Shown here: one piece after another, positions 1,966 to 58,713 of the stretch | Layout: each line of letters opens with the position of its first letter | How positions within the stretch are numbered: the first letter of the stretch is position 1 | Source: a virus | Direction: 5' to 3' (one strand) | Virus record (IMG/VR): IMGVR_UViG_3300025012_000095 | Span: 1-60,941 of that record | Length of the DNA stretch: 60,941 nt | Translations under genes and position numbers: made by a program | The notes under the pieces: model-generated | Databases searched by the model: none | Told to the model about the DNA's origin: nothing | What the model saw: the letters and a program-made list of their open reading frames with translations, nothing else

Positions 1966-2233
1966 ACCAAGTGTTGTGAAATGGAAGAAAGTGCAGGACT
2001 ACTTAGGGCGGCCTGGCATGGCAACCCGACGAGGGGAGTTGGAGGCTTGCATATGGGAGCCGGATCCCGAAGATGATCCACCCAAGAGGTACTTTTGGCA
2101 AGTAGGCCGCTACGCCAATGGCGGGGATTGGGAATTGCAATCCCAGGGGGAAGCCAAACGGCGACGCACCGCAGTAGAGCAGGCTTTGATGGCACTCAAG
2201 CACGTAGAGGAGCGCGCCAATGCCAAGGGGTAA
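1958..2233 (+). CDS. Hypothetical protein
   Basis: 91 residues from ATG 1958 (a GTG one codon earlier is also possible). Charged, soluble and rich in Lys/Arg/Trp, with no motif I recognise. It overlaps both neighbours, so it is translated within the left operon. Confidence 0.55.
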   Translation: MAEPSVVKWKKVQDYLGRPGMATRRGELEACIWEPDPEDDPPKRYFWQVGRYANGGDWELQSQGEAKRRRTAVEQALMALKHVEERANAKG

Positions 2234-2426
2234 TCGTTTTAGGGCAGTCCTGGTCAGCACTGGCAGTTTGCGCCATTACGTGAAGGTGTGGGGTGATGGT
2301 GTTCCTTGCTCCGCCACGCTCTGTAACAGAGATTGGCTCTGCGATGATGAGGAGCCATCACTTGCGGATGGGCTGTGCAAGTGCTGCGTGGCGAGACTGT
2401 CTGCGGAGGTGGACGGTGGTGACTGA
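2220..2426 (+). CDS. Small Cys-rich protein
   Basis: 68 residues. Several Cys residues, including a C-x2-C pair (CKCC), hint at a metal site. It overlaps the upstream gene by 14 bases and the downstream GTG start. No family recognised. Confidence 0.45.
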   Translation: MPRGNRFRAVLVSTGSLRHYVKVWGDGVPCSATLCNRDWLCDDEEPSLADGLCKCCVARLSAEVDGGD

Positions 2427-2631
2427 CGCGGAACACTACTACGTCCTACCAAGCCTGTACGATTGGGGCGATTTCTTGACGGAGATGGGCCCGTTGGCGG
2501 GTGTGCCGGGGACGTGCGGCGTGTTGCTATGCTACGCCACTGCCGATGCGGCGTTGGCGGCGATGGAAGAGGCGGGGTTGCCGCCGGGGACGCTGCCGAT
2601 AATGATACGACGAGCGTCGGGGGCCCCGTGA
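2419..2631 (+). CDS. Hypothetical protein
   Basis: 70 residues from GTG 2419 (GTG 2416 also possible). A purine-rich GCGGAGGTGG just upstream serves as the ribosome site and overlaps the end of the previous gene. The frame extends upstream to 2293, but the upstream part reads like a shadow. It contains a DAALAAMEEAGLPPGTLP helix-turn stretch similar to small phage proteins of unknown function. Confidence 0.5.
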   Translation: MTDAEHYYVLPSLYDWGDFLTEMGPLAGVPGTCGVLLCYATADAALAAMEEAGLPPGTLPIMIRRASGAP

Positions 2632-2951
2632 TAACTGACACGGAACACCTACACGACCTGGCCGCCGCTCGGGTCGCGCCGCATGGCGGGATTGCGCCTG
2701 GGGCCGACGCCTGGGGCTTCCTGGCGCGGTATTGGCACAGCATGGCGGACTTGCTGCAATTCCTCATGCTACGCGAGCGCGCCAGGGCCGCGAGACCGAG
2801 GGGCATTGCGCCTGGGGCCGACGCCTGGCACATGATCGCAGAGGAAAGGGCGGGCGCGTGTCGAAAGTTGGCCGCTGAATGCCAGGAGTGGCGGGATCGG
2901 TACAACGCGCTGAGGCAGGAGCGAGACGGCATAAAGGAGAGGGCGTTGTGA
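2628..2951 (+). CDS. Hypothetical protein with duplicated motif
   Basis: 107 residues from GTG 2628, which overlaps the stop of the previous gene (GTGA). The nine-residue motif GIAPGADAW occurs twice, each time followed by a charged helix, so the protein probably arose by internal duplication. Strongly helical C-terminus. Function unknown. Confidence 0.55.
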   Translation: MITDTEHLHDLAAARVAPHGGIAPGADAWGFLARYWHSMADLLQFLMLRERARAARPRGIAPGADAWHMIAEERAGACRKLAAECQEWRDRYNALRQERDGIKERAL

Positions 2952-3241
2952 CTAGGCCGCTGGAGTGTTGTGTGCAATGCGGTGCCTTAACGGACCGCGC
3001 GGGTGCTGGGGACGGTAGCCTGTATCTCAATGACGATGGGCCGTACTGCGAGGGTTGCTACTACGATACGCTGATCACGAAGTACGAGGAGGCATTAGTC
3101 AGGATAGGGCACTTGGGGCAGGTGCTAACCGAGGCGCTGGAAATGCTCGATCGGGCGGAGAAGCGGCACATAGCGGAGTTGGTTGAGTTGGCGAGACTGA
3201 GAGCGGGCCGCTCACTGGCTATGCTGGAGGGTGGACTGTGA
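2948..3241 (+). CDS. Zinc-ribbon protein with coiled-coil tail
   Basis: 97 residues from GTG 2948, overlapping the upstream stop. The N-terminus has a CCVQC ... YCEGC four-Cys arrangement typical of a zinc ribbon. The second half is an uninterrupted charged helix. No specific family recognised. It lies immediately before the DNA-modification gene at 3266. Confidence 0.55.
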   Translation: MTRPLECCVQCGALTDRAGAGDGSLYLNDDGPYCEGCYYDTLITKYEEALVRIGHLGQVLTEALEMLDRAEKRHIAELVELARLRAGRSLAMLEGGL

Positions 3242-3265
3242 CCGTCGTGACGGCTGACGTGATCG

Positions 3266-4189
3266 ATGGGCGGCGTCGAAATGGGGATGAGCCGGAGGAC
3301 AACCGTGATTTTTTACGTCGGCCTTCACATGCCAAGTCATGCCCGGCATTTCGACAATTGCATGATTAGTGTGAATCGCCTTTGCAAGCGCCGCAGCCCT
3401 TTCGTAGTGCGAAATTGGATTATGGACAGTGGCGCATTCACCACTGTCTATCGCGATGGTGGATACCGGACTCCTCCCGATGCTTATGTGGCTGAGGTTC
3501 GGCGGTGGTCTTCAAACGGCAATCTGGTTGCCGCCGTGTCACAGGACTGGATGTGTGAGCCCGTTGTGCTGGAGAAGACCGGACTGTCCATAGCGGACCA
3601 CCAACGGTTGACGATCGAACGCTATTGTCAGCTCGCACCCCTCATCGACATGACATACCTGATGCCGGTGCTCCAGGGTTATGCGCCGGCCGAGTATGCC
3701 CTACACGTGCGACAATACGGTGAGTTGCTGGCGCCGAGTGCGTGGGTTGGCGTTGGGTCTGTTTGTAAAAGGAACGCTTCGCCTGGGCGGGTGGAGGCGG
3801 TGTTACGGGAGATTTTGACGGTGCGGCCCGACCTGTGGTTGCATGGGTTTGGCCTGAAGACGACAGCTCTAGCAGACGGGCGAGTGCGGGCTATGCTGTC
3901 GTCAGCCGATAGCATGGCGTGGTCCTATGCAGCGCGTTGGGAGGGCCGAGACGCAAACGACTGGAGGGAGGCGGCCCGATTTGTGACGCGAATCGTGTCA
4001 AGGCCGCACCAACTACCATTGTGGCTATCGTCCCACTGTCTAGAGGTGTCGGCGGAGACAGGTGTCGGCGACAATCAGCCTCCGCTTTGTGCGGGGATGG
4101 GCGCGGGGATGAGGATGTGGACTCGCGGCCGAGCAGTCGGTCCCGCCGCGACGTCAACCGAGCAGCCGGCCCTGCCGGGCCTGGCGTAG
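3266..4189 (+). CDS. dpdA: DpdA-like 7-deazaguanine DNA transglycosylase
   Basis: 307 residues; ATG 3281 or 3287 are alternative starts. It is related to tRNA-guanine transglycosylase (TGT) but is a phage DpdA-type protein. Visible motifs in order: MDSGAFT (Asp54, matching the TGT DSGGFQ base-binding loop), QDWMCEP, PVLQG, WVGVGSVCKRN (matching the TGT glycine loop), LHGFGLK, and SADSMAWS (Asp215, in the position of the TGT catalytic nucleophile). The TGT C-terminal Cys3-His zinc site is not evident. Known DpdA proteins exchange guanine in DNA for preQ0 or a derivative, which blocks host restriction enzymes. The YhhQ transporter gene is about 1 kb downstream. The family is clear; the exact base made is unknown. 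Confidence 0.85.
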   Translation: MGGVEMGMSRRTTVIFYVGLHMPSHARHFDNCMISVNRLCKRRSPFVVRNWIMDSGAFTTVYRDGGYRTPPDAYVAEVRRWSSNGNLVAAVSQDWMCEPVVLEKTGLSIADHQRLTIERYCQLAPLIDMTYLMPVLQGYAPAEYALHVRQYGELLAPSAWVGVGSVCKRNASPGRVEAVLREILTVRPDLWLHGFGLKTTALADGRVRAMLSSADSMAWSYAARWEGRDANDWREAARFVTRIVSRPHQLPLWLSSHCLEVSAETGVGDNQPPLCAGMGAGMRMWTRGRAVGPAATSTEQPALPGLA

Positions 4190-4201
4190 TCAATCAATCG
4201 G
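4172..4201. repeat. 30-bp direct repeat, left copy
   Basis: Identical to 6301-6330. This copy spans the last codons and stop of the DpdA gene and the upstream part of the next ribosome site. The two copies bracket the lipoprotein/methyltransferase/YhhQ region. Confidence 0.9.
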
Positions 4202-4210
4202 GAGAATAAC

Positions 4211-4999
4211 ATGATCGACGCCATACTGGACCGCATGATCGACGCCATACTGGACCGATGGACGCTGGTTGGCGACAGATGGTACGCCTTCCGTTGTCCC
4301 GCCGGAAATGGGCCCCGGACTTGGCGGTGTCCGAGCGTCTGCCCGTGCTGTGAGGGCGAGTGCGGGTTTACGGAACACGTGGACGAATGGGGCGGCCCAC
4401 ACTATCCCTGTGGATATTGCGACAGCAGTGGCGTTGTGTCGCTGCGCGCGCGGATGTTGTGGTGGTCCTATGGGTCCCGCGTAGGTAAGTGGTTCTGGCG
4501 GCTCTTCGAACGCCTAGAAGAAAGGCGGCAGGTGAATGACATGACCAAGGACACGCTACGTTGGATCGTCGCGTTGGCCGCGCTTGTGGCGGCGCTGACG
4601 CTGGTTGGGTGCCGTGGCAATGCGACGGCTGGCCCCATCGGTTCCGCCTGGCCGACCGAGGACCTGACCGCCGCTGGCTGGCAGGCTACGGGCATGTGCG
4701 CGCCGGCGGTGGTTACGCCGGCCATGCTGGCGGTGTGGTTCGCCTCGGTTGACGGTACGATCCGTGTAGAGGTCGGCGCCAGTACGGTATCGTTCGGGCA
4801 TTACGTCGTTTCGGTGGATGTTGCCCAGCGATCCGTGTCGGTGGTAGGGCCGCCGGGTGCCGATGTGCTAGAGCGGGACATAGCGGCGTGTGTCGGCTCG
4901 GGGCCGATGCCGGACGACCGCGCCGGGCGCTGGATAGACGGCATGTACACGGATGAGGCTATCGAGCCGACTGCGCCAGCCGGCGAGCCACAAGCCTGA
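4211..4999 (+). CDS. Zinc-finger / lipoprotein-like fusion protein
   Basis: 262 residues in one open frame that looks like two joined genes. The first 16 residues are an exact 8-residue tandem repeat (24-bp duplication at 4211-4258). Residues 40-80 carry Cys pairs (CPCC, CGYC) of a zinc-ribbon type. From Met111 (ATG 4541) the sequence is a lipoprotein signal: MTKD, a hydrophobic stretch of about 18 residues, then a TLVGC lipobox, then a secreted-type domain with two further Cys. The ATG at 4541 may be the true start of a separate lipoprotein of 152 residues. A phage lipoprotein could act in superinfection exclusion; this is inference. Confidence 0.55.
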   Translation: MIDAILDRMIDAILDRWTLVGDRWYAFRCPAGNGPRTWRCPSVCPCCEGECGFTEHVDEWGGPHYPCGYCDSSGVVSLRARMLWWSYGSRVGKWFWRLFERLEERRQVNDMTKDTLRWIVALAALVAALTLVGCRGNATAGPIGSAWPTEDLTAAGWQATGMCAPAVVTPAMLAVWFASVDGTIRVEVGASTVSFGHYVVSVDVAQRSVSVVGPPGADVLERDIAACVGSGPMPDDRAGRWIDGMYTDEAIEPTAPAGEPQA

Positions 5000-17098: not shown

Positions 17099-18019
17099 AT
17101 GGGCGTCAAGTCTGGGCAGGTATGGACGGGCGTCTTTCCGTGCCGGGATGCGACGGGGGCATTGGCGACACCTTCCGTTGGGCCGGTTGGCTCGCTATAT
17201 GTAGCCGGTGCCGCGAATGGCGCATCGGTGACGATTGGTGGATCAAACCCCTACACATTCTCGGTCACGCTCCCTGTGTTGACTGCTGGCCAAACGGTGA
17301 GCCTCTACGTCACGGCCACGATTGCGGGTATCGCGACGGCATCGGTCATAGCGGAGGAGGTGGCAGACACCTATATCGCCAGTGATGTCTACAGCCGCTT
17401 GACCGGTACGGTGGAGCCGCTGGTAGCGGCGCAGGCGATCCGCGATACGCTGAAGCTGGCACCGACCGCCGGCACTGCGGCCGAGGGGTCGATTGACGAC
17501 CAGCTGGCCGACATCGAGGCGCAGACGGATGACATCGGCGCGGCGGGCGCGGGCCTGACGGCGCTTGGCGATACGCGGCTGGCGAATCTCGATGTGACGG
17601 TGAGCAGTCGCTCGGTCTACGCGGGGGCCGACACGGTTGGCACGACCACGTTGCTCTCCCGGCTTAGCGCGACACGGGCCGGCTATCTCGACAACCTGTC
17701 CGCGGGAGCCGTGGCGCTGGAGGCCACGCTATCCACCCTGGTCGCGAGCATTTGGACGGGCATCACAGGGACGGCCGCGAATCTGATTGCGGATCACGTT
17801 CTGCGGCGCACGACGGCCAATGTCGAGGCTTCTGCGAACGGTGACCTTCTGTCGGCGCGGTCGCTGTATGGGGCAGTGGCGCGGCTGGTGCACAAGGTGA
17901 GCGTGAGCGGGTCCACCATGACGTCTTACCGGGCAGACGACAGCACTTCGCTTACGACAGCGGCGCTAACCACAGATTCTTCCGCGGCCCCGACCATCGG
18001 AATCGACCCCGCCGCATGA
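17099..18019 (+). CDS. Putative structural protein
   Basis: 306 residues. A beta-rich N-terminal domain is followed by repeated 'RL-x-N-L-D' and 'LSATRAGYLDNLS' segments that often form trimeric stalks in phage fibre proteins. No Cys after residue 15. It probably belongs to the virion together with its two upstream neighbours. Confidence 0.55.
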   Translation: MGVKSGQVWTGVFPCRDATGALATPSVGPVGSLYVAGAANGASVTIGGSNPYTFSVTLPVLTAGQTVSLYVTATIAGIATASVIAEEVADTYIASDVYSRLTGTVEPLVAAQAIRDTLKLAPTAGTAAEGSIDDQLADIEAQTDDIGAAGAGLTALGDTRLANLDVTVSSRSVYAGADTVGTTTLLSRLSATRAGYLDNLSAGAVALEATLSTLVASIWTGITGTAANLIADHVLRRTTANVEASANGDLLSARSLYGAVARLVHKVSVSGSTMTSYRADDSTSLTTAALTTDSSAAPTIGIDPAA

Positions 18020-18816
18020 CCCATCTCGTGGCGTGTACTCAGTGTGCCGAGCCCTTCGAGCGGTCCCCGGAGTTCTTCGCTGTTGACAAGAGGCGAAGTG
18101 ACGGCTTGGGATCGTGGTGCAGGGCGTGCCGTCGGGCCAAGTGCGCCGAATTCACTCGCGGCTACAGGAGCCGAATGGCACCTGGCGAGTTGAGGGCGCA
18201 GGACAGGCGTCGCGTGGAGTCCTATGCCGATCTTGAGCCCCCGGCCGAGAAGCGGTGCCCCGCGTGTGCGGAGACAAAGGCGGTTGGTGAGTTTGGGGTA
18301 GATCGGAAAAGGAAGGACCGGCTAACGGCCTATTGTCGCCCATGCACGGCGGCGAAGAGCCATGCAAGCTACATGAGGCATCGGGAAGCCAGGCTCGAGC
18401 AGTCCAAGGCCTACCGGTCTGGGGTGAGGCCAGCGCGGCAAGCGCGAGCAAGGGAGTATTACAAGGAGAACAAGGCGGAGATAGACGCAAAGCACCGTGA
18501 GTATTACCGCGATGACGCCAACCGCGACGCCTTTCGGGACAGGGTGGCTCGGCGGCGCGTTCGCCAGGCCGGCGCCCCTGCCGAGAAGATCGATCGTGTG
18601 GGCGTTTACGATCGCGACGGCGGCCGGTGCCATATCTGCGGGCGTCGTTGCCGAAGGGACTCATGGCACATGGACCATATCGTTCCAGTGGCCGCCGGCG
18701 GGGCACATGTCTACGAGAACGTGGCCGTCTCTTGTCCGACGTGCAATCGCGCCAAGGCGCACACGGGGCCGGGACAAATGCTGCTGCCAGTGGTTGCGCG
18801 CATGGTTGCCACATGA
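18016..18816 (+). CDS. HNH endonuclease with two Cys4 modules
   Basis: 266 residues. Two similar N-terminal Cys4 modules (about 7-45 and 75-115) share a C-x2-C, FG/FFAVD+, GL/RL, WC/YC-x2-C pattern. A charged coiled region follows. The HNH domain (about 195-250) has RCHICGRRC, HMDHIVPVAAGG, YENVAVSCPTCNRAK. The ATGA coupling on both sides makes it an operon member rather than a free-standing homing gene, although a mobile origin or a packaging-nuclease role near the terminase is possible. Confidence 0.75.
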   Translation: MTHLVACTQCAEPFERSPEFFAVDKRRSDGLGSWCRACRRAKCAEFTRGYRSRMAPGELRAQDRRRVESYADLEPPAEKRCPACAETKAVGEFGVDRKRKDRLTAYCRPCTAAKSHASYMRHREARLEQSKAYRSGVRPARQARAREYYKENKAEIDAKHREYYRDDANRDAFRDRVARRRVRQAGAPAEKIDRVGVYDRDGGRCHICGRRCRRDSWHMDHIVPVAAGGAHVYENVAVSCPTCNRAKAHTGPGQMLLPVVARMVAT

Positions 18817-19010: not shown

Positions 19011-19316
19011 ATGGCCCACGGCGGGGATTATCTCGAGGGCTCAACGGTTCGTGTCCAAGTGACGTTCGTGGTCGGAGGGGTGAACACCGATCCGACTACG
19101 GTCACGCTCAAGGTCAAGAGTCCGGCGGGCGTGACGACGACCTACACCTATGCGTTGAGCCAGGTGTCGAAGTCGGCGACCGGGGTCTACTCCAAGGATC
19201 TGGGGCCGTCTATCATTGACGCGCCGGGGGCATGGTGGTACAGGTGGATCGGAACTGGCACCGCTGCGGGAGTCGCCGAAACATCGATCACGATCCTCGC
19301 GAGCCAGATAGACTGA
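19011..19316 (+). CDS. Ig-like small structural protein
   Basis: 101 residues from ATG 19011. Beta-sandwich pattern: GDYLEGSTVRVQVTFVV, DPTTVTLKVKSP, then GAWWYRWIGTG and AETSITI. This order is common among small phage proteins located before terminase or in the neck. Probably virion associated. Confidence 0.55.
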   Translation: MAHGGDYLEGSTVRVQVTFVVGGVNTDPTTVTLKVKSPAGVTTTYTYALSQVSKSATGVYSKDLGPSIIDAPGAWWYRWIGTGTAAGVAETSITILASQID

Positions 19317-19345: not shown

Positions 19346-21199
19346 ATGACCGTAGCGGCGAATCCCTGGACAAGCCTAGCCGCATGGTGCCAGGGCGATG
19401 CGTTGGCCACTTCGGCTGTAAAGACTGACGATGAGTTGTGGGAGTGGGTGGCCGACACCCTCGGTGTTGTTATCCCGCGAAAAGCTTGTTTTGACGGGCA
19501 CACGGCCCCATTCGATGCGTTTGCGGAAGCGTTCTTTGCGAAAACCCCGATCTCGGTGTGGATTGGATCTAGAGGATTCTCGGGGAAGTCGTATCTGCTG
19601 GCAGTGTTGGGGATAACGGAGGCGCTGCTACTTGGGGCGGATGTGAGAATCTTGGGAGGGTCCACGGACCAGTCGGAGAACGTAGTTCGGTACACGGAAT
19701 CCTTTATGGGCCGCCCGAAGTTCCCCCCCGGCATGATTCTGTCTGGGAGGCAGCCAGGAGTAACCAAGACTCGAATCAGTCTTGTAAACGGAGGGGGGAT
19801 GATAGCTCTTCCTGCGTCCATGACCGCTGTTAGAGGTCCCCACCCGTCTCGTCTTAGGGTGGACGAGTGCTTTATCGCCGGCACACGAGTTGCCGTGCCA
19901 GAAGGGGTGAAAGTAATCGAGAGCTTTGCCCCTGGCGACAGGGTTCTTTCTTGGAAGGACGGGAAGATAGTTGAGGGGGAGGTTCTTCGTACCTGGGATC
20001 GGGGGAGACGTGAGACTATCAAGTTGACGGTGCGGACGGGCAGCAACTTGGTTTGCACGCCCGAGCACAAGATCCTTGATGGTGTCGAGGACAAGTGGGT
20101 ACAGGCTTCCATCTCAACCTTTGTCCGTACAGCGTCGTTCGTTGAAAAGTGGGAGACGGGGGTAGGGAAGATCGTTGATCGTGTGGCTTTTGGGAGAAGC
20201 CGTGTTTATGACATTGCTACAACTCACGGTAACTACATAGTAGAGGGTGTGATAGTTCACAACTGCGACGAGTTGGACTGGAAGGTGCTTCAGGCTGCGC
20301 TGGGGCAGACGATGGCTGCTGGGGCGGTCCAAGCCCAGACGGTGGTGTCAAGCACTCACCACCACGCTGACGGGACCATGACGCAGGTGCTCAAATTGGC
20401 TGAGGAGCGGGGGTGGGCCACCCACAGGTGGTGTTTCAATTGTACGTCAAAGACGGTTGAGAACCCGACTGGCTGGCTGGCCCCCTCTGAGGTTGCCCGC
20501 AAGCGGCAAGAGGTTCCGGCCGCAATGTTTGAAGTTGAGTATAATCTCTCTGAGCCCAGCCCTGAATCCCGAGCAATCATGCCACAATCCGTCGAGGATA
20601 TGTTTCAGGAGGGGTTGGGTCGTTTTGACGGCAAGCCGGGGGAGTATATAGAGATTGAGGCTCCCGTCCAGGGGGCGCGGTACTCTACGGGGGCAGACTG
20701 GGCCAAGGACGTTAACTGGACAGACATTGTAACGCTCCGGTACGACGTGACCCCGGTTAAGGTGGTGGCCTGGGAACGGCGGGGGCGCGAGCCCTACCCC
20801 ATAATGGCGGGATGCTTAGACAAGCGAGCTACCCGATACCCTGGGAGGGTGTTTCACGACCAAACCGGTGTTGGCAACGGGCTTCACGACTTTTTGAATT
20901 GCAACGCTACCGGTGTGGTGTTGGTGGGGAGGAGGAGAACCGACCTGCTTTCTAGCTACATCACCGCTATAGAGGGAGGGCGGATAGTCGCCCCTCGGAT
21001 TGCACATGTTCACGGTGAGCATCGTTATTGCGCGAGTGACGACCTTTGGGGGGATGGGCATCTCCCCGACTCAGTGTGTTCACACGCATTGGCGTGGTCA
21101 GGAGTAAGTCAGGGCGGGCTAGGTCAACCTGATACTGGCCCCGAGTACAACTTGCTAGATCACACCGAGCTTGGCGGTTGGGATCGACTAGAGCTTTAG
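19346..21199 (+). CDS. terL: Terminase large subunit, interrupted by an intein
   Basis: 617 residues as encoded and about 485 after removal of the 132-residue intein. Start ATG 19346 has AAAGGGAGC upstream. The ATPase half shows Walker A GSRGFSGKS (residues 74-82) and Walker B RLRVDE, with the intein inserted directly after the catalytic Glu and before CDELDW. The nuclease half has STGADWAKDVNW and VFHDQTGVGNG with the expected acidic residues. It packages DNA into the Mu-like prohead encoded downstream. Since the intein cuts the Walker B motif, activity requires splicing. Confidence 0.9.
   Translation: MTVAANPWTSLAAWCQGDALATSAVKTDDELWEWVADTLGVVIPRKACFDGHTAPFDAFAEAFFAKTPISVWIGSRGFSGKSYLLAVLGITEALLLGADVRILGGSTDQSENVVRYTESFMGRPKFPPGMILSGRQPGVTKTRISLVNGGGMIALPASMTAVRGPHPSRLRVDECFIAGTRVAVPEGVKVIESFAPGDRVLSWKDGKIVEGEVLRTWDRGRRETIKLTVRTGSNLVCTPEHKILDGVEDKWVQASISTFVRTASFVEKWETGVGKIVDRVAFGRSRVYDIATTHGNYIVEGVIVHNCDELDWKVLQAALGQTMAAGAVQAQTVVSSTHHHADGTMTQVLKLAEERGWATHRWCFNCTSKTVENPTGWLAPSEVARKRQEVPAAMFEVEYNLSEPSPESRAIMPQSVEDMFQEGLGRFDGKPGEYIEIEAPVQGARYSTGADWAKDVNWTDIVTLRYDVTPVKVVAWERRGREPYPIMAGCLDKRATRYPGRVFHDQTGVGNGLHDFLNCNATGVVLVGRRRTDLLSSYITAIEGGRIVAPRIAHVHGEHRYCASDDLWGDGHLPDSVCSHALAWSGVSQGGLGQPDTGPEYNLLDHTELGGWDRLEL
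19868..20263 (+). other. Mini-intein within the large terminase
   Basis: 132 residues (175-306 of the precursor). It starts with CFIAGTRV (catalytic Cys1, block A) and contains LVCTPEHKIL (block B, T-x2-H). It ends RVYDIATTHGNYIVEG (block F) and VIVHN (block G, terminal His-Asn), followed by Cys+1. No LAGLIDADG or HNH homing-endonuclease region is present, so it is a minimal Hint splicing domain that cannot move by its own nuclease. Confidence 0.92.
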
Positions 21200-21208
21200 G
21201 AGGTGAAT

Positions 21209-23365
21209 ATGGCTGTCTGGGAAATGCAACAGGCAACACAGCGGGCGGAACAAGCGCTTGCAAAGGTGCGGGTTTCGCGGCAACAGGCAGCTGGCACCAC
21301 AAAAGAGAAGGGGACTTCGGGGCGTTCTACCTGGCGAGGAGAACGCATCTTCGACGAGTTGGACGATCCTAACGCTTTGTGGCTTCCCCCGACCCGTTGG
21401 GAGACCGTTAGGGAGATGCTGATTGACCCTGACGTTTGCGCCTCTCTGGATGCAACGGTGTTGCCCTTGCTTGGCCGAAAACTGATCGTGCAGCCCGGTG
21501 CTCCCACTGCACTGGGAAAGGATGTGGCGGCGTTCGTCGAGAACGACCTCAAACACATGTCTGCGGAGTGGCAGGATATTCGGGGTGCTGCCCTGCTGGG
21601 CATGTTGGCAGAGGGGGTTGCGCCTTTTCACACGGTCTACTCGTTCTCGGGGGACACAAAGCGCTATCACTTGCGAAAGTTGGCTTATCGGCCCCCGTCA
21701 TCCATTAGCATTTGGCACGAGGACGAGCATGGGGGGCCGGATGGGCTAACCCAGGTAGTAACGAATGAGCACGGGTTATCGGAGGAAGTCCATTTTGAGA
21801 TGGACGAACTCCTGCTATTCGTGCGGAACCAGACGCGGGCAGGGATCACCGGGGAGCCGATTACGCGCCGCATGTATGGTCCTTACAAGCTCAAGACGGT
21901 GTTGGCGAAGGTTGGTGGCGCTGCGGTTGAGCGGCACGGCATGGGTATACCGACGGTGCTCTACAAGGGGAACAATGAGGCCACTCATGCACGCATCCAG
22001 CGGATACTGATGGGGTTGCGGGCAGGAGCCAAGCAGTTTGCTCTTTGGACCGACCTGGAGTCTATGCAGGACTTCAAGATTGCTGGAGTTGAGGGGCAGA
22101 TTATAGACCCGTTGGGGCAACTGGAGTTCCACCGCCGAGCCATCTACTTTGCCACATTCACTCAATGGTTGCCACTGGGATCGGATGGGACGGGCGCTAG
22201 GGCACTGGGGGATTCCCACCTCGATGCGTTCCTGATGATGCTTGGGGCGCTTTCCGAGATGGAGGAGGCAACCTACAATCGGTATCTGATTCCCAAATGG
22301 GTGGGGTATAACTGGGGGGACGAGATTCCCGAAAGTGAGTTGCCAAAGGTTATAGCTCCTCGTATCGACTCGCGGAACGTCAAGGAGTGGATGGAAGCGT
22401 TGAACTCCGCGGTACTGGCGGGGGTCTCCTTTGACGAGCGAGTGGTCAAGGAAGCGGCATATCAACTGCTCGACCTGAGTTTGCCGGAGGAGACATCTAC
22501 AGTGTTGCCCCCGCAGACCTCGGGGGTTACTGAGGTACCACAAGACACTGAGGGAGAGCCGCCCGACGAGAGCGGAGATCTCCCCACCACTCAGGCGGCC
22601 CAGGGCGAACCGCTGAAGTCGGATCTCGTCCTTCAAGAGAGTGGGGTAATAGTCAACTTCGACTTGATGGAAGGAAAGATGGATGCGGCCGTGCGGCGAT
22701 TGTTGGAGAAACTGACGCGCCTTCAAGAAAAGCAGGCGCGTCGCGTTAGTTCCATAGTACGCAAGGCCATAAGCCGTGGGGATTACGCCATGCTGGAGAC
22801 ACTAGAAATCCCTTCTACCGAAGAAGCGAAGGCCCTGCGCGATGAAATGATTATCTTGGCGCTGATGGGGGTTACGCAAGTCGCAGAAGAGGTGCAGGTG
22901 CCAGATGCCCGCCCCAACGAACTTTTGCCGTCGCTGGATCTCGCCGTAGACACGATGGCTAACGAGGGAGCCAGGTCGTTAGCTGATCGTATGCGGACAG
23001 CGGCCGGGGCCGCTGCGTCACTGGCGCTGGTGGCGGGGGTAACGGGGGCGGGGGGTCAGATAGAAGGGATTATAACAGGGGCGAGCGCAAAGTTCCTCAG
23101 CGATTTGACGGAGCGCTTGGTCTCTGGGGCACTCCATCTAGGGCGGCGGGTTGTGACCGGGTATCTGGACTTGACGAAGGGGGATTTTCTCTACTCCGCG
23201 AGGATGGACCGGAATACCTGTAAAGGGTGTTGGGAGGAGGATGGCAACTCTTGGCCCGCGGGGTCATCCGAGGTGGTTTGGCCTCCGGCGGCTTGTTTGG
23301 GCGGCATGAAGTGTCGTTGTATTCTTATAGCCATGAATACAGGTGAAGTTGTGTGGCCAAAGTAG
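21209..23365 (+). CDS. Portal protein fused to MuF-type minor head protein
   Basis: 718 residues from ATG 21209, with AGGAGGTG four bases upstream. Residues 40-440 match Mu gp29/DUF935 portals (DPDVCASLDATVLPL, the helical RILMGLRAGAKQFALW region, GDSHLDAFLMML). After an acidic linker near 460-500 a second domain ends with ARMDRNTCKGCWEEDG ... CLGGMKCRCIL, the C-terminal Cys signature of Mu gpF/SPP1 gp7-type minor head proteins. Portal and MuF are usually separate genes; here they are one polypeptide. Confidence 0.8.
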   Translation: MAVWEMQQATQRAEQALAKVRVSRQQAAGTTKEKGTSGRSTWRGERIFDELDDPNALWLPPTRWETVREMLIDPDVCASLDATVLPLLGRKLIVQPGAPTALGKDVAAFVENDLKHMSAEWQDIRGAALLGMLAEGVAPFHTVYSFSGDTKRYHLRKLAYRPPSSISIWHEDEHGGPDGLTQVVTNEHGLSEEVHFEMDELLLFVRNQTRAGITGEPITRRMYGPYKLKTVLAKVGGAAVERHGMGIPTVLYKGNNEATHARIQRILMGLRAGAKQFALWTDLESMQDFKIAGVEGQIIDPLGQLEFHRRAIYFATFTQWLPLGSDGTGARALGDSHLDAFLMMLGALSEMEEATYNRYLIPKWVGYNWGDEIPESELPKVIAPRIDSRNVKEWMEALNSAVLAGVSFDERVVKEAAYQLLDLSLPEETSTVLPPQTSGVTEVPQDTEGEPPDESGDLPTTQAAQGEPLKSDLVLQESGVIVNFDLMEGKMDAAVRRLLEKLTRLQEKQARRVSSIVRKAISRGDYAMLETLEIPSTEEAKALRDEMIILALMGVTQVAEEVQVPDARPNELLPSLDLAVDTMANEGARSLADRMRTAAGAAASLALVAGVTGAGGQIEGIITGASAKFLSDLTERLVSGALHLGRRVVTGYLDLTKGDFLYSARMDRNTCKGCWEEDGNSWPAGSSEVVWPPAACLGGMKCRCILIAMNTGEVVWPK

Positions 23366-45235: not shown

Positions 45236-46132
45236 ATGGGACAGATTCACCCGCTCGATCAACGTAAAGGGGCGAGAAATTTGAATCAGGATACCGAGAC
45301 AATCAGAGTCGAGCGTGGCTACGCGGCAATGCGGGCAGCCGCTCGTCGGCACCACGAGCAGCGCGTGGCGACGATAGCCTTTACGATCTTCGCACTTGGC
45401 ACGGCGTTTGGGTGGTGGCTGAAGCCGGTGGTTGTCCCCCAGGTGGCTAGGGCGCAGGTGATTATCCAGGAAAACTCGGCGGCGGCTGTTGAATCTTCAA
45501 CGTTAGCCTCGCTCCAATTGGGCTACAAACCCCCTGCGATTGATGACGCGGTTGGCGATTCAACCACCAATGGTGTTAGCGATTCAGCTAGTATGCCAAC
45601 CGGTATTAGCGAATCCACGATTCCGTGGATGCCGGAGACGGTTACAAGGTGGTTGCCTGAAATTACGGGGGCGGCTACGGCACATGGCATTGACCCCGAA
45701 CTTGTGGCAATCGTGATGTTGGTGGAGTCAGGGGGCGGAGACGATGCCACCAGCCGGAGTGGGGCAACGTCGCTCATGCAGGTAATGCCGGCTACCGGGG
45801 CGGGCATCGCAGCAGAGCGGGGCATAGAAAAGTACGATCTCTATGATCCGGCAACCTCAATCGACTTTGGAGCCTATTATCTCGCTCAGCAGATGGCGGC
45901 TTTCGGCAAGGTTGACGATCCCGATTGGCAAGCCTCGGTGGAATTGGCTGCCGCCGCCTACAACGGCGGGCCTGGCTCCGTGATTCGTGGCCGGCTGTCG
46001 TCGGAGACGATACGATATAGGCGCTGGATGGGGGGTTTTTGGCGCGAGAGACATGATTCGGCTTCGCCAACGTTTGAGGAATGGAAAGTGGCTGGGGGTT
46101 CTCGGCTTATCCAGAATGCGGAGGAGCATTGA
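45236..46132 (+). CDS. Membrane-anchored lytic transglycosylase
   Basis: 298 residues from ATG 45236; TTG 45281 with AAAGGGGCGAG is an attractive alternative. A hydrophobic helix (ATIAFTIFALGTAFGWWL) anchors the protein. The C-terminal SLT domain has the catalytic Glu in MLVESGG, then GATSLMQVMPATG and AAYNGGPG. It cleaves peptidoglycan glycan strands. It opens the lysis operon directly behind the promoter at 45164. Confidence 0.82.
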   Translation: MGQIHPLDQRKGARNLNQDTETIRVERGYAAMRAAARRHHEQRVATIAFTIFALGTAFGWWLKPVVVPQVARAQVIIQENSAAAVESSTLASLQLGYKPPAIDDAVGDSTTNGVSDSASMPTGISESTIPWMPETVTRWLPEITGAATAHGIDPELVAIVMLVESGGGDDATSRSGATSLMQVMPATGAGIAAERGIEKYDLYDPATSIDFGAYYLAQQMAAFGKVDDPDWQASVELAAAAYNGGPGSVIRGRLSSETIRYRRWMGGFWRERHDSASPTFEEWKVAGGSRLIQNAEEH

Positions 46133-47496
46133 ACAAGGATCAACAGCAACGACTAGCGCTGACAGCGGCAATAGGCGTCCCGCTTCTGGTTATCTACTCG
46201 TTGGCCACGGGGTCGATGGCCCCACGCTGTGCGGTGGGTGAGCGGTGCATCATCGGCTACGACTCCGAGGTAGGGATACCGGCGGGCCTGACGGTAGTGG
46301 AGCACATTCCAGCTCTGAACGCCGTGGTGGTAGAAGAGACTGCTCAGGTACGGGTCTTCTCTCGCGCTGAGGGGGTGCGATACACCGAGACAGACGGAGA
46401 GATGCGTCTGATTGAGCCGGTGGCATACACTTTACTGGCTTCGGTTGACCCCCTCGTGGCACAATGGCACCTTGCGGCTATTGATGCGGTTGGGGCGTGG
46501 ACGAGAACGAAGGGCAAGGGGCAGACAGTTGCCGTGGTAGACACGGGGACGGACTGCGCCCACCCCGATTTGGCGGGGATCTGCAAGGCGGGCAAGAACT
46601 TCACCAGCTCAACACCCTGCGGTCCCGGCTCTAACTGCGATGGGCACGGGCACGGCACGCACGTTGCGGGGATCGTAGCGGCAGTGGGGCGAGTGTTAGG
46701 TGTGTCGCCGGAAGCCAAGGTGATTCCGGTCAAGGTGCTGACTGACCAGGGGGGCGGCTTGTGGTCCGATGTAGCGATGGGGATAGTCTGGGCAGCAGAT
46801 CAAGCTCCGGTCGCCATCAACATGAGCCTCGGCAGCCCTGGTGCATCGCAAGTCGTGCAGGACGCGGTGAACTACGCGCTTGGCAAGGGAATCACAGTTG
46901 TGGTGGCCAGGGGCAATAACGGGAGCGCCGCGCCGGACTATCCAGCCTGTTACCCTGGCGTCATAAACGTGACGGCAACGGGAGTGGGCGGAGCACGCGC
47001 GGCCTGGTCCAGCTTTGGCAATTGTGGGGAGCGGCTTCAGATCGCGGCTCCCGGCGAGAGCATAGCGTCAACGGTTCCCGGTGGGGGACTGGAGGCGTGG
47101 AGTGGCACGAGTATGGCGGCTCCGGTAGTGAGTGGCGTGGTGGCATTGGTGAGGAGTGTCGGTGTACCAGCCTCATTCGTGCCTGACGTGTTGGCCAAGA
47201 CAGCAGGCACTCTCAGTAATGCCAAGGGGGAGGTGGGCATCGTCCACGCGGGGCGTGCAGTTTCCGCGCCTTCCCCCACTGCGGGGCCGTCACCAACGCG
47301 GATGCAAACGCCGGCCCTATCAACGCAGACCAGGACGCCAGTGGGCTATCCTGCCCCTGCGACTGCCACCCCACCAATTGTCCCTCCCACAAGGACACCT
47401 CCGCCTGGATGTCTCCTTGTGCGAAGGACAATGTTGGTGTTCGACGGTGCACCGGTACTGATGCCGGTCTGGGTATACGACTGCAAGGAGGATTGA
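46129..47496 (+). CDS. Subtilisin-like serine protease (S8), secreted
   Basis: 455 residues from TTG 46129 with CGGAGGAGC, overlapping the previous stop. A hydrophobic export segment (about 13-28) is followed by a propeptide-like region and the catalytic domain. Asp is in VVDTGTDCAHPD, His in GHGTHVAGIVAAVG and Ser in SGTSMAAPVVSG, all intact. A Thr/Pro-rich linker (about 390-430) leads to a short Cys-containing tail. A complete subtilase is unusual in a phage lysis region; it might cut host surface protein or process a lysis protein. Confidence 0.85.
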   Translation: MNKDQQQRLALTAAIGVPLLVIYSLATGSMAPRCAVGERCIIGYDSEVGIPAGLTVVEHIPALNAVVVEETAQVRVFSRAEGVRYTETDGEMRLIEPVAYTLLASVDPLVAQWHLAAIDAVGAWTRTKGKGQTVAVVDTGTDCAHPDLAGICKAGKNFTSSTPCGPGSNCDGHGHGTHVAGIVAAVGRVLGVSPEAKVIPVKVLTDQGGGLWSDVAMGIVWAADQAPVAINMSLGSPGASQVVQDAVNYALGKGITVVVARGNNGSAAPDYPACYPGVINVTATGVGGARAAWSSFGNCGERLQIAAPGESIASTVPGGGLEAWSGTSMAAPVVSGVVALVRSVGVPASFVPDVLAKTAGTLSNAKGEVGIVHAGRAVSAPSPTAGPSPTRMQTPALSTQTRTPVGYPAPATATPPIVPPTRTPPPGCLLVRRTMLVFDGAPVLMPVWVYDCKED

Positions 47497-56800: not shown

Positions 56801-57151
56801 ATGGATGAGATGGCAGTGCGAAAGGCGATGGACACCCTGCGGCTAGGTTGGCTTTCACGGAACTCCGACTACTGCCGCGACTGCGCGGGCGTCGGGATAG
56901 TAACGTCTCGCGAGAATCAGGCGCCGCTCGGTAGCGGGTTGAACTGGGCGGAGACGTCTGTCGAGCCATGCGAGGAATGCGTTGGCGGGGGGAAGTGCCC
57001 GACGTGTGGAAACCCGCTTTTGACCGACCCCGCCGGCCAACCGATCGAGGGCTTCAAAGGCGACGGTCGCATCAGCTGTATAGTGGGTCACGTGTCGATA
57101 GATGGTTGGGCATTCGCGGGCTGCCCGCCGACATACGAAGAGCTCTACTAG
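56801..57151 (+). CDS. Zinc-binding protein
   Basis: 116 residues. YCRDCAGVG, PCEECVGGGKCPTCGNP give three Cys pairs of DnaJ/ribbon type, then a folded end with WAFAGCPP. Function unknown. Confidence 0.55.
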   Translation: MDEMAVRKAMDTLRLGWLSRNSDYCRDCAGVGIVTSRENQAPLGSGLNWAETSVEPCEECVGGGKCPTCGNPLLTDPAGQPIEGFKGDGRISCIVGHVSIDGWAFAGCPPTYEELY

Positions 57152-57159
57152 GGGGAATC

Positions 57160-57786
57160 ATGACAACGAGAGAACGCAAGGAACGCAAGGCAGAGCGCCG
57201 CCGCGCGTGGGCCGAGAGCCGTCGTCGGCAGGCGGCAGTTGCCCGCGCGGGTGCGTCAGCGATCGCAGACGGGATCCCATTCGGGCAGCCGATCCTGGTC
57301 GGCCACCACTCCGAAGCCCACGCACGGCGGGACCAGGATCGCATACATGCGGGCTTCCGCGCGGGACACGAGCACGACCAGATGGCCCAACATCACGAGG
57401 ATCAGGCAGTCGGGATCGAGCAGCAGCTTGATAGCTCGATCTACTCAGATGATGTCGACGCGCACGAGCGGTTGCGGGAGCGCATTGCACGGCTCGAGGC
57501 CGAGCGGGATCGCGTCAAGGCGTACAACGCTTCGTGCCGGAAGGGCGCGAGGGATCTGTCGGTGCTGGACGAGGGGCAGCAGGGCAATCTGCTAAGCGTT
57601 GCACGGCACTGTCCCTACCAGCTAGGGAAGCGCGGCGAGTTTCCCGGCTACCACCTGACCAATCTGGGCGCCCGCATTCGCACGGACAAGAAGCGCCTGG
57701 CCGCGCTAGGCGAGGCGCGCACCTCAGCGGAGCGGACCTCGGCGGAGCGGGCCTACGCGAGGCGTACCTGTACGGGGCGGACATGA
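57160..57786 (+). CDS. DUF3560-like protein
   Basis: 208 residues from ATG 57160 with GGGGGAATC. A very basic N-terminal helix is followed by PFGQPILVGHHSEAHARRDQ, the core motif of DUF3560, and long charged helices. The last 25 residues are Ser/Ala/Glu/Arg repeats read out of frame from DNA that, in another frame, encodes pentapeptide repeats. The true C-terminus was probably altered by recombination. Confidence 0.6.
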   Translation: MTTRERKERKAERRRAWAESRRRQAAVARAGASAIADGIPFGQPILVGHHSEAHARRDQDRIHAGFRAGHEHDQMAQHHEDQAVGIEQQLDSSIYSDDVDAHERLRERIARLEAERDRVKAYNASCRKGARDLSVLDEGQQGNLLSVARHCPYQLGKRGEFPGYHLTNLGARIRTDKKRLAALGEARTSAERTSAERAYARRTCTGRT

Positions 57787-58043
57787 TCTGGGGCTGGGTG
57801 GGAAGGCGGTTTCTCCCCGAGCGACACGGACAGGCGTGCCGAGTCCTTGTCAGAGGAAGACCGCCTCGCCAGCGACACGTGCTGGTCGAATTCGGTGATG
57901 GGTATTGTACCCGCACAATGCAGGGGTGCCTGAGGAGGCGCAAGATGTTGAATGATGGCGATGGCGATAGTCCCAACGTTCGCCCGTCATGCCCGAGAGG
58001 AGCGGCCGGCACACACGAGGAGGCAGGCGATGATGCGAGATGA
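57783..58043 (+). CDS. Hypothetical protein
   Basis: 86 residues from ATG 57783 (ATGA overlap). VGRRFLPERHGQACRVLVRG and HVLVEFGDGYCTRT look like a small beta-barrel; the tail is acidic. The same frame upstream of this ATG encodes a few pentapeptide repeats (AHLSGADLGGAGLREAYLYG), possibly a decayed fusion. Confidence 0.5.
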   Translation: MIWGWVGRRFLPERHGQACRVLVRGRPPRQRHVLVEFGDGYCTRTMQGCLRRRKMLNDGDGDSPNVRPSCPRGAAGTHEEAGDDAR

Positions 58044-58713
58044 GTGTCTGACGATCATTGAGGCGGCTCGGGCTGCCGGGGAACAGCCGGACCTCGGCTG
58101 GGTGAACCTCGGCGGCGCGGACCTACGCGGGGCGGACCTGACCGGCGCGGACCTCGGCGGGGCGAACCTCCGCGGGGCGAACCTCGGCGGGGCGAACCTA
58201 CGCGTGGCGTACCTACGCGGGGCGTACCTACGCGAGGCCAACCTACGCGAGGCCAACCTACGCGGGGCGAACCTCGGCGGGGCTTACCTATGCGGGGCGG
58301 ACCTAACCGGCGCGGACCTACGCGAGGCGAACCTACGTGGGGCGTATCTACGTGGGGCGTATCTACGCTGGGTGTACCTACGCGAGGCCAACCTACGCGG
58401 GGCGAACCTGGCCGGGGCGGACCTACGCGAGGCGGACCTACGCGGGGCGGACCTGTACGGAGCGGACTTACGCGGAGTGAACCTACGCGGCGCGGACCTG
58501 TACGAGTCGGACCTGACCGACGCGGACCTGCGCAAGGGGAACCTCAGTTGGGCGAACCTACGCGAGGCGTACCTACGCGAGGCCAACCTACGCGAGGCAT
58601 ACCTACGCTGGGCGGACCTGCGCGGGGCTGACCTCGGCGGGGCGGACCTGACCGGGGCGATCCTGGACGGGGCGATCCTGGACGGAGAGGAGGCAGGCGA
58701 TGACACGAGATGA
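58030..58713 (+). CDS. Pentapeptide-repeat protein 1
   Basis: 227 residues from ATG 58030 with GAGGAGGCAGGCG. After an 18-residue helix (RDECLTIIEAARAAGEQ) come about 40 A(D/N)Lxx pentapeptides to the end, forming a right-handed quadrilateral beta-helix. Some such proteins (Qnr, MfpA) mimic DNA and bind gyrase; whether this one does is not known. Repeats are very similar in DNA, so copy number can change by slippage. Confidence 0.85.
   Translation: MMRDECLTIIEAARAAGEQPDLGWVNLGGADLRGADLTGADLGGANLRGANLGGANLRVAYLRGAYLREANLREANLRGANLGGAYLCGADLTGADLREANLRGAYLRGAYLRWVYLREANLRGANLAGADLREADLRGADLYGADLRGVNLRGADLYESDLTDADLRKGNLSWANLREAYLREANLREAYLRWADLRGADLGGADLTGAILDGAILDGEEAGDDTR

Follow-up and report, generated by a model that had tools for sequence, protein, structure and literature searches.

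Does the DNA packaging ATPase of a phage depend on a protein that must first remove itself from the middle of the catalytic motif? The question is raised by one gene in a virus record of 60,941 nucleotides (IMG/VR record IMGVR_UViG_3300025012_000095; the whole stretch analysed is hereafter called the window), where an initial annotation had placed a mini-intein inside the Walker B motif of a large terminase (TerL). We followed this claim computationally, and arrived at the reading that a divergent phage TerL is interrupted, immediately behind the catalytic Glu of Walker B, by a class 1 mini-intein predicted to be functional; to this reading we assign a probability of roughly 0.92. The features concerned are collected in Table 1.

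Table 1. The terL precursor gene, its parts and its neighbours in the window
Feature	Position	Strand	Description
HNH/endonuclease VII-like gene, free-standing	18016..18816	+	upstream of terL
terL precursor	19346..21199	+	617 aa; predicted spliced product 485 aa
N-extein	19346..19867	+	174 aa; Walker A GSRGFSGKS; Walker B RLRVDE at its extreme end
Class 1 mini-intein (predicted)	19868..20263	+	132 aa; C1, CTPEH in block B, VYDIATTHGNY in block F, VHN in block G
C-extein	20264..21199	+	Cys+1 first; remaining ATPase and RuvC-like nuclease (GADWAKD, HDQTGVG, PDS)
Portal protein (Mu-like)	21203..23365	+	confirms packaging gene order

The host protein and the insertion site

The terL frame is uninterrupted by stops over the entire gene, intein included. 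Its longest possible ORF begins at 19232 and overlaps the preceding gene, which makes the ATG at 19346 the likelier start. The GC content of the intein (53%) differs mildly from that of the exteins (58-59%), a difference that is not decisive, and a search for repeats at the intein junctions found none.

The identity of the host protein was examined with a profile of five intein-free TerLs (from Thermus/Meiothermus phage and IMG/VR), from which the window's sequence was left out. The spliced extein matched this profile as a single continuous domain (9.2e-8), whereas the unspliced precursor gave piecemeal matches only. With Walker A, Walker B, a RuvC-like nuclease and homology to known TerL all found, the host ORF is, as judged from its sequence, a divergent phage large terminase. 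Moreover, RLRVDE/CDELDW (a slash marks the insertion point or the position corresponding to it) aligned to LVVLDE/AAWIP of the Thermus and Meiothermus phage TerLs, and the window TerL was also aligned to T4 gp17 (YIDE/CAFIP) and to P74-26 TerL, using a profile that includes the window's own row. As T4 gp17 carries IDECAF here, a Cys at the +1 position is natural at this point of Walker B. The placement originally proposed, exactly after the catalytic Glu of RLRVDE, therefore holds against independent TerLs; a TerL Walker B insertion site reads VDE/C in the window and LNE/A in mycobacteriophage Gaia.

Several other genes of the window were recorded along the way. A DpdA-like gene at 3266-4189 (Pfam 1.5e-42) suggests that the phage DNA may carry 7-deazaguanine modifications, and a subtilase (S8) family protease is encoded at 46081-47496 (Pfam 3e-44), upstream of the phage's endolysin gene. 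Near the record end lie genes for a DUF3560 protein (56968-57786) and for a strong match to pentapeptide-repeat proteins (57952-58713). The HNH/endonuclease VII-like gene listed in Table 1 bears repeated Cys-rich motifs.

Splicing residues, fold and the endonuclease

The insert translates to CFIAGTRVAV...CTPEHKIL...VYDIATTHGNYIVEGVIVHN, then Cys, with Cys1 encoded at 19868-19870, Asn132 at 20261-20263 and Cys+1 at 20264-20266; by these codon positions, the boundaries and residue assignments of the initial annotation were exact to the base. The class 1 residue set is complete, comprising Cys1, T64-x-x-H67 in block B (CTPEHK), D115 and H119 in block F, and H131-N132 in block G, followed by Cys+1. 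When 27 phage inteins were aligned, the window's included, its Cys1 aligned with the 26 others; C1, F2, G5, T6, I17, H67, H131 and N132 were invariant and T64 nearly so. That a residue of the catalytic blocks might prove mutated on closer alignment had been allowed for, and none is (C1, H67, H131 and N132 being invariant). Block F (YDIATTHGNY) is one residue short of the common form, and by sequence comparison its His occupies the same position as that of the HPSY type in other phage inteins. Assignment to class 3, which is defined by the lack of a position-1 nucleophile and by a WCT triplet, was considered and rejected, since Cys1 is present.

Profile searches and structure prediction likewise bear out the claim of a mini-intein with a Hint domain. 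Both intein end models scored above their curated cut-offs, TIGR01445 (intein_Nterm) with 30.8 bits against 24.5 and TIGR01443 (intein_Cterm) with 18.1 bits against 15.6; PF14890 matched the isolated intein domain at its cut-off (8.5e-9), and the Mtu RecA mini-intein was matched by phmmer (1.5e-6). The AlphaFold model (pLDDT 82.7) adopts an intein fold, i.e., the Hint fold of class 1 inteins, matching inteins in Foldseek at an E of about 1e-7 and solved inteins along its entire length, with Z of 16.5-18 across 117-126 residues (about 17 for the Mtu RecA intein).

The initial annotation had also stated that no homing nuclease remains. In line with this, no endonuclease family matched the 132-aa insert, a family search of which found neither a LAGLIDADG nor an HNH domain. 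The low-confidence stretch of the AlphaFold model spans residues 86-98, which we take to be the usual insertion place of a homing endonuclease in inteins, and it is on this account plausible that a former endonuclease domain was lost near these residues. A hidden endonuclease in overlapping frames was looked for as well, and none was present in the two longest antisense ORFs, there being no other long frame there; an endonuclease hidden in another frame is reported for the ShiLan element (PMC11855218).

Proposed splicing and alternative explanations

We propose that after translation Cys1 would attack the Glu-Cys bond, assisted by the T-x-x-H of block B, upon which the chain would be transferred to Cys+1, Asn132 would cyclise, and VDE and CDEL would be joined (VDE/CDEL) to give a working ATPase. 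Because 132 residues part the catalytic Glu from the ATPase core that follows, ATP hydrolysis by the unspliced protein is very unlikely, and we strongly infer that ATPase activity depends on splicing. Mycobacteriophage TerL inteins that have been tested, the Walker B intein TerL1-e among them, spliced fast in a reporter (PMC5050341). As for its origin, the window intein most likely represents what is left of a homing intein after loss of the endonuclease, and it would persist because any imprecise deletion would ruin a protein that the phage cannot do without.

An alternative starts from the proposal of the initial annotation that splicing may be conditional. The intein would then act as a switch, in which splicing awaits a signal (redox, metal, temperature or a late-infection state) and activates the packaging motor post-translationally. 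In favour of this idea, the intein breaks up a catalytic motif in an ATPase that is essential, it lacks the endonuclease that would account for its survival as a homing element, and TerL inteins have been suggested to play regulatory roles (PMC5050341). However, its catalytic residues are all of the canonical kind, and the N-extein has its Cys residues (15 and 48) far from the junction, which leaves no obvious disulphide trap for redox control; the TerL inteins tested in the same study splice fast, and a lone mini-intein persists simply since precise loss is rare. The suggestion of conditional splicing thus found no support, and we regard a switch as very unlikely; it is improbable to a similar degree that an endonuclease-less class 1 intein was domesticated at the TerL Walker B as a packaging timing switch, independently of the class 3 TerL1-e.

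Two further explanations concern what the domain does and whether it still moves. The bacterial intein-like (BIL) domains 2lwy and 6y75 are among the nearest folds to the intein model, as would suit a BIL domain, or another kind of Hint domain, with cleavage instead of splicing as its activity, yet the window domain precisely splits an essential motif, Cys+1 is present, and both intein end models lie above cut-off. BIL domains, by comparison, are typical of variable proteins, which are often secreted, and frequently have no +1 nucleophile; this reading is scarcely credible. Collaborative homing would add to the splicing explanation and not replace it: the mini-intein could still be mobile by means of the free-standing HNH endonuclease, whose gene precedes the intein by about 1.1 kb, a mechanism that has been described for group I introns lacking an endonuclease (PMC2814812). 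Against it, no intein-free close relative was found that would reveal a target site, and the nearest relatives of the HNH protein in phage records are just about 25-30% identical. HNH genes beside terminases are, moreover, common and can belong to packaging. We consider such mobility highly improbable, and any link between the HNH gene and the intein is speculative.

Relatives and comparison with known inteins

Close relatives of the TerL and its intein were confined to two further IMG/VR contigs of the same virus, the three contigs being 99.99-100% identical; none was confirmed among 84,980 prokaryote genomes by a pattern method that detects near relatives only. Phage records yielded remote matches only, at about 21-28% identity (TerL or intein), and the best full-length matches of the intein were similarly remote (26-32%). 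No empty, intein-free site was found in the single virus lineage recovered, and a tree of splicing domains left the window intein unplaced on a long branch, with no supported link to any group.

Scanning IMG/VR for the motif DECFxxGT returned at least 80 readable loci, including the window's own virus (L102). Nearly all the other loci listed are phage helicases with a DE/C intein, and in those whose far junction could be located, Cys-His nearly always comes next; the E/C...N/C junction of the window intein is common to at least about 30 phage inteins in DECH helicases. Among the matches listed, the window's TerL was the sole terminase Walker B case recognised, and locus L044 resembles a terminase match in its nuclease region. 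Further class 1 inteins at the TerL Walker B may exist elsewhere. Walker B DE/CH inteins proved very common in phage DECH helicases (listed loci L023-L101), ranging from about 128 aa to over 350 aa, and two clamp-loader-like ATPases (L030, L084) have the same DE/C junction. One helicase of Vibrio phage 13VV501A (L022, gene 2152-4653) contains two mini-inteins, the P-loop holding one and Walker B the other, on which its annotation is silent.

Comparison with known TerL insertion sites, a check named in the initial annotation, showed the Walker B position to be already occupied by TerL1-e of mycobacteriophage Gaia gp2, in the same host protein and directly after the same Glu (FIILNE/ALALDTP...VTHN/SHHM, compared with VDE/C...HN/C in the window). 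TerL1-e splices in a reporter (PMC5050341) and is related to mycobacterial DnaB-b inteins. It is nonetheless a class 3 intein of 341 aa, with no Cys1, a Ser+1 and LAGLIDADG-like motifs, whereas the window intein is class 1 and has 132 aa; BLAST similarity between the two is not significant (E 0.43). Given the class of TerL1-e and its LAGLIDADG-like motifs, separate arrivals of the two inteins are most likely.

Other TerL inteins share the class of the window intein and differ in position. That of Acinetobacter phage ME3, its best full-length BLAST match (26%), is also a class 1 mini-intein (137 aa) but sits in the P-loop (GRR/C...HN/TGKT). The class 1 TerL inteins of ctRVW222, Microcystis phage Mic1 and Rhodobacteraceae phage LS06, two of them small (133 and 146 aa), are located close to where the nuclease domain ends, at DH/C or DH/C.../S. 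The TerL of Mic1 (L019, 1-2859) has a second intein besides that in the nuclease domain, inserted in its ATPase domain (LTG/C...HN/TPKG). The DE/C inteins of phage DECH helicases (IMG/VR L026, L029, L058 and L059; Vibrio phage 13VV501A) resemble the window intein in being class 1 with E/C...HN/C at Walker B, and some likewise lack an endonuclease (128-152 aa); they sit in helicases, however, and the splicing-domain tree did not group them with it with support.

The site itself is thus already known, and what is new is the combination of a class 1 intein, the lack of an endonuclease, the TerL Walker B and a divergent lineage. The general picture of inteins is unchanged by this example, which offers a natural intein of 132 aa, flanked by Glu (-1) and Cys (+1), as a small splicing candidate for bench use. 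Together with TerL1-e it gives two inteins of different classes at one and the same point in the Walker B motif of the packaging ATPase, which agrees with a single catalytic site having been colonised independently. When the many helicase DE/C inteins are added, inteins are seen to land repeatedly at the Glu-Cys junction of Walker B in P-loop ATPases that are not related to each other.
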